From: Thermoproteaceae archaeon
GTDB taxonomy: Archaea > Thermoproteota > Thermoprotei > Thermoproteales > Thermoproteaceae
Length of the DNA: 64,000 nucleotides
Assembly (NCBI GenBank): GCA_015521775.1
Contig: WANN01000002.1
Location: 62,001 to 126,000 of the forward strand
Direction of reading: 5' to 3'
In this document: piece after piece, positions 3,543-52,803 of the stretch
How positions within the stretch are numbered: the first letter of the stretch is position 1
Layout of the letters: each line of letters begins with the position of its first letter
Made by a program: the position numbers and the translations under genes
Notes under the pieces: generated by a model
What the model was told of the DNA's origin: nothing
The model's input: only the letters and a program-made list of their open reading frames with translations
The model's database searches: none

Positions 3543-3644
3543 TGGAGCCCCGGCCGGGATTTGAACTTTCCCCGGCGCTGTGTGCGCCGTCCGGGACCTC
3601 CTCATTACCAGTGAGGCGCTCTGGCCAGGCTGAGCTACCGGGGC
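3543..3644 (-). tRNA. tRNA-Thr(GGT) with a 24-nt intron in the T arm
   Basis: Minus-strand cloverleaf: acceptor stem GCCCCGG/CCGGGGC, D arm, anticodon stem CCTCA/TGAGG with loop CTGGTAA (anticodon GGT at 3607-3609), T loop TTCAAAT, discriminator T and encoded CCA. The T stem only closes (CCGGG/CCCGG) if 24 bases at 3567-3590 are removed between nucleotides 52 and 53. The junction forms a proper bulge-helix-bulge: central helix TCCC/GGGA, bulges GGA and AAG cut after the second base, and an inner 6-bp hairpin CGGCGC/GCGCCG. The mature length is 75 nt plus CCA. Archaeal splicing endonuclease would excise the intron. Confidence 0.93.
3567..3590 (-). other. Non-canonical tRNA-Thr intron
   Basis: The 24-nt insertion sits between tRNA positions 52 and 53. 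It consists of a GC-rich hairpin with an ACACA loop followed by GGGA, which pairs with exon TCCC. See the tRNA-Thr entry for the bulge-helix-bulge geometry. The same central helix recurs in the intron of the tRNA-Gly half at 52427-52452. Confidence 0.88.
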
Positions 3645-42034: not shown

Positions 42035-42181
42035 GCTGTGTGAGAAGGATGGGGTGTAGTGGTGGGTGCGTCTGCCGCCCGCCCTTTGACCTGGCTCGGG
42101 CACCCCCGCCTATATCCATATAATTTGCCTGGATTTAAACTTTACGCGGCCAAATTTTTATTGGGGATGCGGCCGCAACAC

Positions 42182-47178: not shown

Positions 47179-47287
47179 TGGTGGGCCCGAGGGGATTTGA
47201 ACCCCCGCCCTACGGGTTGCTCCCCTGGGCCTGGACTGCGGCGGCTTTGGCCGTGCCCGCCGCTCTGCCTGGCTGAGCTACGGGCCC
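47179..47287 (-). tRNA. tRNA-Trp(CCA) with two introns
   Basis: Acceptor GGGCCCG/CGGGCCC, D arm GCTC...GAGC, T arm GGGGG TTCAAAT CCCCT, discriminator A and encoded CCA. The anticodon stem GCGGG/CCCGT and loop CTCCAGA appear only after removing two inserts: 19 nt between positions 32 and 33 and 13 nt between 37 and 38. Both inserts satisfy bulge-helix-bulge rules (central helices GCGG/CCGC and CTCC/GGAG, 3-nt bulges cut after the second base). Mature size 74 nt plus CCA. The second helix uses C32 from the other side of the first intron. Confidence 0.9.
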
Positions 47288-52402: not shown

Positions 52403-52479
52403 TGGTGCGGCGGCCGGGATTTGAACCTTCCCCAGCGCCTCACCGGCGCTGGCCGGGATCGCGGGTTTGGCAGACCCGC
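52403..52479 (-). tRNA. 3' half of a split tRNA-Gly(GCC), with a T-arm intron
   Basis: Only nucleotides 26-73 plus CCA are encoded: anticodon stem CGGGT/ACCCG with loop CTGCCAA (anticodon GCC), T loop TTCAAAT, acceptor 3' strand CCGCCGC, discriminator A. There is no D arm or GCGGCGG 5' strand upstream. The TATA at 52521-52527 puts transcription start near 52500, leaving a 21-nt GC-rich leader. The end of that leader, CCTG then AA, forms the 3' side of a bulge-helix-bulge with the exon start G26. A 26-nt intron lies at 52427-52452. A tRNA fragment left by an integrated element is the alternative reading. Confidence 0.75.
52427..52452 (-). other. Intron in the tRNA-Gly half
   Basis: 26 nt between positions 52 and 53: an 8-bp hairpin CCAGCGCC/GGCGCTGG, then GGGA pairing with exon TCCC, bulges GGC and AGG. 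Same site and central helix as the tRNA-Thr intron at 3567-3590, so the two share an origin or a splice logic. Confidence 0.85.
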
Positions 52480-52527
52480 TTCAGGGACAGGTGCGGGGCT
52501 ATTGTTGTGGATGCTGCCCATTAAAAA
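52480..52527 (-). promoter_or_regulatory. Promoter and leader of the tRNA-Gly half
   Basis: Minus-strand TATA TTTTTAA at 52521-52527, then a leader (52500-52480) reading AGCCCCGCACCTGTCCCTGA followed by A. The leader should base-pair with the trailer of a separate 5' half; the predicted partner carries CAGG next to a 3-base bulge and then GACAGGTGCGGGGC. Confidence 0.65.
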
Positions 52528-52803
52528 GTTTTGCCTGGCAGTTTGGAGTCTGTGTGCTCTCTGGCCGGTGGACCCACGGATGTTTCTGGACCACGCCCAG
52601 GACACCGCAGCGATGTGGATTCGCCGGCAAGGTTTTAAGCACTTGGATTTCCACCTCCGTGGCGCCTCTATTAGGGCCCGCGGCCTTTGCACTGTATGGA
52701 GGGGGTCCGCGGGCGCGGCCTACGTCGAGGGAACAACGCGTTCGGCCCAACAGCGGAGGGGACCACAACACTGGGGGAATGCTCTGGCCAGGGCACGACT
52801 AAC

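Follow-up and report, generated by a model that had tools for sequence, protein, structure and literature searches.

A promoter-bearing tRNA-Gly(GCC) 3' half and predicted trans-splicing of glycine and leucine tRNAs with shared 5' halves in a genus of the Thermoproteaceae

The window analysed here is the whole stretch of 64,000 nucleotides (nt) from contig WANN01000002.1 of a heat-loving Thermoproteaceae archaeon, which is contig C2 of the draft genome that we call G000 (81% complete). The genome of its sister species, G001 (JALWZH01, 'Thermoproteales archaeon T2_metabat1_scaf2bin.089'), is also a draft and is 91% complete. On the reverse strand, the window contains a block that reads as the 3' half of a glycine tRNA gene with a promoter, a leader and an intron of its own. 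The intron has a bulge-helix-bulge (BHB) motif, and the parts of the block are as follows.

52532..52403, reverse strand: the whole Gly(GCC) 3'-half gene, with TATA box, spacer, leader, tRNA exons, intron and encoded CCA
52521..52532, reverse strand: B recognition element (BRE)/TATA box AAAACTTTTTAA, identified by promoter-matrix score and kept in the sister species
52480..52499, reverse strand: leader GCCCCGCACCTGTCCCTGAA, 20 nt, which pairs with the trailer of the 5' half in an outer helix of 14 bp and a central helix of 4 bp and supplies the first two bulge nucleotides, AA
52453..52479, reverse strand: tRNA-Gly(GCC) nucleotides 26-52, GCGGGTCTGCCAAACCCGCGATCCCGG, comprising the anticodon arm, the variable region and the 5' strand of the T stem
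52427..52452, reverse strand: T-arm BHB intron of 26 nt between nucleotides 52 and 53, excision of which restores the T stem
52403..52426, reverse strand: tRNA-Gly(GCC) nucleotides 53-76 including the encoded CCA, GTTCAAATCCCGGCCGCCGCACCA

The original prediction had claimed a split tRNA-Gly(GCC) of which only the 3' half, with its own promoter, lies here; this is supported by the exons 26-76, the TATA box and the leader, and by a 5' half on another contig. As had also been proposed, the half begins at nucleotide 26 and keeps an intact anticodon arm, T arm, CCA and intron, which we read at 52479..52403. The anticodon loop is CTGCCAA, giving the anticodon GCC for glycine. The intron has a canonical BHB of its own (central helix UCCC/GGGA, bulges GG^C and AG^G, read by eye), and after its excision the T stem is perfect (CCGGG/CCCGG). 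The TATA box scored 18.8 bits with a matrix derived from the promoters of 29 intact tRNA genes in the two sister genomes, a value reached at about 2 of 128,000 window positions (frequency 1.6e-5). The predicted G+C-rich leader and its spacing from the TATA box were confirmed; its length, put at 21 nt, is 20 nt by promoter spacing. Neither ARAGORN nor Rfam gave a match in this region, as is to be expected of an incomplete gene that bears an intron. No GCGGCGG-type 5' half or 5' acceptor strand was found within 200 nt upstream. A segment of 154 nt, which runs from the TATA box to just beyond the CCA, has the same sequence in the sister species, whereas the next outer bins of 40 nt are only 70-80% identical. 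A promoter-bearing tRNA-Gly(GCC) 3' half without a nearby 5' half is thus confirmed as an observation.

A 5' half starting with GCGGCGG and carrying a complementary trailer, as had been predicted, is present in both genomes. A pattern search with GCGGCGG and a Gly D arm gave one convincing site in each, at G000:C32:27810(+) and G001:C131:4658(-). It consists of a box TTTATATA, followed by GCGGCGGTAGTCTAGCCTGGACTAGGAT and then by the trailer AGGCGGGTGCGGGGCGGCTAGACACC, and both Gly(GCC) halves have their own TATA boxes at the expected spacing (12.2-18.8 bits). Immediately after the exon, GGCGGGTGCGGGGC of the trailer forms 14 of 14 base pairs, two of which are G-U, with GCCCCGCACCTGTC of the leader. 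After this helix come the bulge AUA, a central helix of 4 bp (UAGG/CCUG) and the bulge AAG, and cofolding of the trailer and the leader predicts a BHB. The bulges AU^A and AA^G agree with the claim that the exon boundary obeys the BHB cut rule, and a cut between the second and third base of both bulges would join U25 to G26. The 5' half had been expected to end in a CAGGAC-type sequence; its actual end is CTAGGAT. That a complementary trailer exists was correctly foreseen; its letters were given as GACAGGTGCGGGGC, which differs from the actual GGCGGGTGCGGGGC at two positions, both G-U wobbles. The exact search for GACAGGTGCGGGGC found only the complement of the leader itself, which, among the roughly 128,000 14-mers of the window, is also the only one to pair with the leader at 14 of 14 positions. 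A search allowing for wobble includes the Gly 5'-half trailer, with two mismatches, among many chance matches.

We also observed that the trailer end of the Gly 5' half, GGCTAGAC, is in both species exactly reverse-complementary to GTCTAGCC, which lies in the D arm of the same half (G000:C32:27810+). This pairing may fold the unjoined 5' half or aid transcription end.

The joined Gly(GCC) RNA would be 79 nt long. It aligns with the intact tRNA-Gly(GCC) of a relative (G011:C1:1904041) at 79 of 79 positions, gap-free and with 89% identity, so that nothing is absent or surplus at the junction. ARAGORN called the joined Gly GCC, CCC and UCC molecules as tRNAs with the correct anticodons and made no call for either Gly half alone. 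Since it also accepts joins shifted by one base and a chimera of the Leu 5' half and the Gly 3' half, ARAGORN cannot fix the junction or the partner; these are fixed by the BHB and the gap-free match.

The same 5' half, of which a single one was found in each genome, appears to serve two further glycine tRNAs. Gly(CCC) 3' halves lie at G000:C13:28756(-) and G001:C83:2384(-), and a Gly(UCC) 3' half lies at G001:C131:11711(-); each of these halves has a TATA box of its own. The outer helix that the CCC and UCC leaders (CCGCACCCGCC and GCTCCGCACCCGCC) form with the common Gly trailer has at least 11 bp, with C-G pairs replacing the U-G of the GCC leader. An additional Gly(CCC)-like 3' half at G000:C16:3746-3756(-) was set aside as a decayed duplicate; it has no intron, has lost its TATA box and carries a one-base deletion near the boundary of the T stem and the acceptor. 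This copy is either a duplicate of the C13 locus or part of a contig from a related strain.

Two other origins of the Gly(GCC) fragment bear directly on these data. In the first, an element integrated into a tRNA-Gly gene and left behind its 3' end as an attachment (att) site remnant, a process for which there is precedent since the 3' ends of tRNAs are often targeted by mobile elements (PMC3218864). However, no integrase is found among the flanking genes, which encode thioredoxin-like, MoeA, methyltransferase, epimerase and thioesterase proteins; the 3' end does not recur in the window as a direct repeat, the best other T-arm matches being two other tRNA genes; and the fragment carries a promoter of its own as well as a leader that is complementary to a 5' half at another locus, in a block that is identical in the sister species. 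The combination that had been named as refuting the original prediction, a complete tRNA-Gly(GCC) together with an integrase and an att repeat, was not found: neither draft yielded a complete gene, the neighbouring genes include no integrase and the window has no repeat. We regard such a remnant as very improbable.

In the second, the two halves belong to a single tRNA gene separated by a very long cis intron. The Asp, Lys and Ser tRNA genes of this genus do have long interruptions (see below). The Gly(GCC) halves, however, lie on separate contigs in both species (C32 for the 5' half and C2 for the 3' half in G000; C131 and C75, respectively, in G001), and in G000 they are more than 16 kb and more than 26 kb from the nearest contig ends, which makes one long transcript implausible. 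Moreover, each half has its own TATA box, and one 5' half is available for three 3' halves. This explanation has next to no probability.

The window contains a second shared 5' half, which belongs to leucine tRNAs.

42133..42143, reverse strand: TATA box AAAGTTTAAAT of the shared tRNA-Leu 5' half, at position -34 as in intact tRNA genes
42086..42109, reverse strand: shared tRNA-Leu 5' half, nucleotides 1-21, GCGGGGGTGCCCGAGCCAGGTCAA, which matches Leu 3' halves elsewhere in both genomes
42074..42085, reverse strand: Leu 5'-half trailer AGGGCGGGCGGC (also given as GGGCGGGCGGC), able to form 11 bp with the leader of each Leu 3' half

Nine Leu 3' halves with the acceptor strand CCCCCGC and the leader GCCGCCCGCCCGGCAAG were found in the two genomes. 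Their anticodons are CAA, GAG, UAG and UAA in G000 and CAA, CAG, GAG, UAG and UAA in G001, read after manual removal of a 17-nt intron except in CAA. The joined molecules are read by ARAGORN as tRNA-Leu with CAA, GAG, UAG, CAG and UAA. The junction is likely at 21/22 in the D loop, with a central helix of three pairs and a G-A mismatch. Other GCGGGGG matches were rejected as Leu 5' halves for lack of a proper trailer. These leucine tRNAs are apparently the first split class II tRNAs.

Intact Leu genes and uninterrupted tRNA-Gly genes were found in neither of the two incomplete drafts. It could be argued that the halves are degraded pseudogenes or artefacts of assembly or binning, and that a functional intact Gly(GCC) gene is simply absent from the drafts; their incompleteness and the decayed Gly(CCC)-like copy speak for this. 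Against it, the halves, junction, trailer and leader are alike in two species, the segment from promoter to CCA is identical while its flanks have diverged, and the same pattern extends over all three Gly and five Leu isoacceptors, so that the loss of every intact copy from both drafts is unlikely. We consider this possibility highly unlikely.

The catalytic subunit of the tRNA splicing endonuclease, found in G001, matches that of Pyrobaculum aerophilum (2zyz_B, 1.8e-73), and the structural subunit, found in G000, matches 2zyz_A of the same species (1.5e-20). These are the two chains of the heterotetramer 2ZYZ, and heterotetramers are the endonuclease type which is correlated with split tRNAs (PMC3218864).

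Taken together, the halves, promoters, complementarity, BHBs, canonical joined tRNAs, conservation in two species and endonuclease genes can be read directly from the sequences. At this level the features of split tRNA genes, apart from the lack of an intact gene, are present, namely separate loci, own promoters, a BHB, a canonical predicted joined tRNA and a candidate endonuclease. The block 52532..52403 is very probably the 3'-half gene of a trans-spliced tRNA-Gly(GCC), within a Gly and Leu system with shared 5' halves that would operate as follows. The 3' half would be transcribed from its own TATA box, and its G+C-rich leader would base-pair with the trailer of the separately transcribed 5' half (G000:C32:27810+) to form a BHB. 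The heterotetrameric endonuclease would cut within each of the bulges (AU^A and AA^G), after which a ligase, presumably RtcB, would join U25 to G26; this endonuclease would also excise the T-arm intron in cis. The Gly 5' half would in addition serve the 3' halves of Gly(CCC) and Gly(UCC), and the second shared 5' half, 42109..42086, would serve those of tRNA-Leu with all five anticodons, with the join at 21/22 in the D loop.

Several points weigh against this interpretation. A G-A mismatch lies in the central helix of Gly(CCC), Gly(UCC) and Leu; the TATA box of the Leu 5' half is weak (10.2 bits); an intact copy could lie within a gap of the drafts; and we infer the transcription, cleavage, ligation and function of the split tRNAs from sequence. 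Because of the mismatch and the weak TATA box, the mechanism is a little less firm for Leu than for Gly.

Long interruptions after the anticodon were found in Asp(GUC) and Lys(UUU) of both species and in Ser(CGA) of G001.

G000:C19:62980, G000:C24:19238 and, on G001, contigs C136, C55 and C91: interrupted loci of Lys(UUU), Asp(GUC) and Ser(CGA)

Where scored, the internal TATA boxes in these interruptions reached 13.9-18.4 bits, and they are placed such that the predicted transcription start lies near a leader complementary to a trailer. These genes resemble split halves that lie side by side, with promoters in between; the interruptions could instead be long cis introns. Two tRNA genes of the window, at 3546-3644 and 47182-47287 on the reverse strand, are found by the Rfam tRNA model and missed by ARAGORN, and at least the second has introns. 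Introns are present in many other tRNA genes of this genus (T-arm loci of G000), some having more than one, as in Pyrobaculum.

The predicted system can be compared with those known in other archaea. It resembles the split and tri-split tRNAs of Caldivirga maquilingensis (Thermoproteales) in having separate transcripts, BHB joining and tRNA-Gly among the tRNAs affected. The likening of the 25/26 junction to Caldivirga is supported: Gly 5' halves in four genomes of a genus of the same order (g4, presumably Caldivirga) end in AGGAT|A with the trailer AAGGGGGCTGGGG, so that the junction is as here and the trailer is different. According to a 2009 account by Fujishima, the Gly tRNAs of Caldivirga reportedly have a common 3' part, some being in three pieces. 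By contrast, the Gly tRNAs described here would be in two pieces with a common 5' half and a different trailer sequence, and Leu is split too. A common 5' half is known for Ala(CGC/UGC) of Caldivirga (PMC4390854). Nanoarchaeum equitans likewise trans-splices two halves, one of which is common to isoacceptors (the 3' half of Glu; PMC4390854), but other tRNAs are split there and none of its six is class II. The layout of Asp, Lys(UUU) and Ser(CGA) in this genus is that of Aeropyrum pernix tRNA-Asp, in which an interruption of more than 100 nt at 37/38 contains an internal promoter from which transcription is predicted to begin 20-25 nt ahead of the 3' half (PMC3218864). That species has a single split tRNA, whereas this genus has eight dispersed and three adjacent candidates, the Gly and Leu halves being the dispersed ones.

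In 2014, 29 split tRNA genes with 12 anticodons were counted in seven genomes (PMC4033280), and the most reported in one genome is six (PMC3218864). A 2015 review knew of no split class II tRNA (Leu, Ser) and took this as support for a late origin of class II (PMC4390854). In the open-licence literature we found no report of split tRNAs in this genus, of eight per genome or of split class II tRNAs, although reports that are not indexed may exist. Split tRNAs as such are already known; what seems to be new, judged from the predicted genes, is a further genus, eight split tRNAs and split class II (Leu) tRNAs.

We think it probable that in this genus all Gly and all Leu tRNAs are built combinatorially, from one shared 5' half per amino acid and eight anticodon-bearing 3' halves which include the first split class II tRNAs, and that Asp, Lys and Ser are intermediate, a long intron having gained a promoter, in a live series from intron through adjacent halves to dispersed halves. 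The eight split tRNAs would make up two complete isoacceptor families, and with the shared 5' halves two entire codon sets would each hang on one gene. A split tRNA-Leu, if true, would take away the argument for a late origin of class II tRNAs. With short introns, promoter-bearing interruptions and dispersed halves in one genus, the route from intron to split gene would become directly testable.
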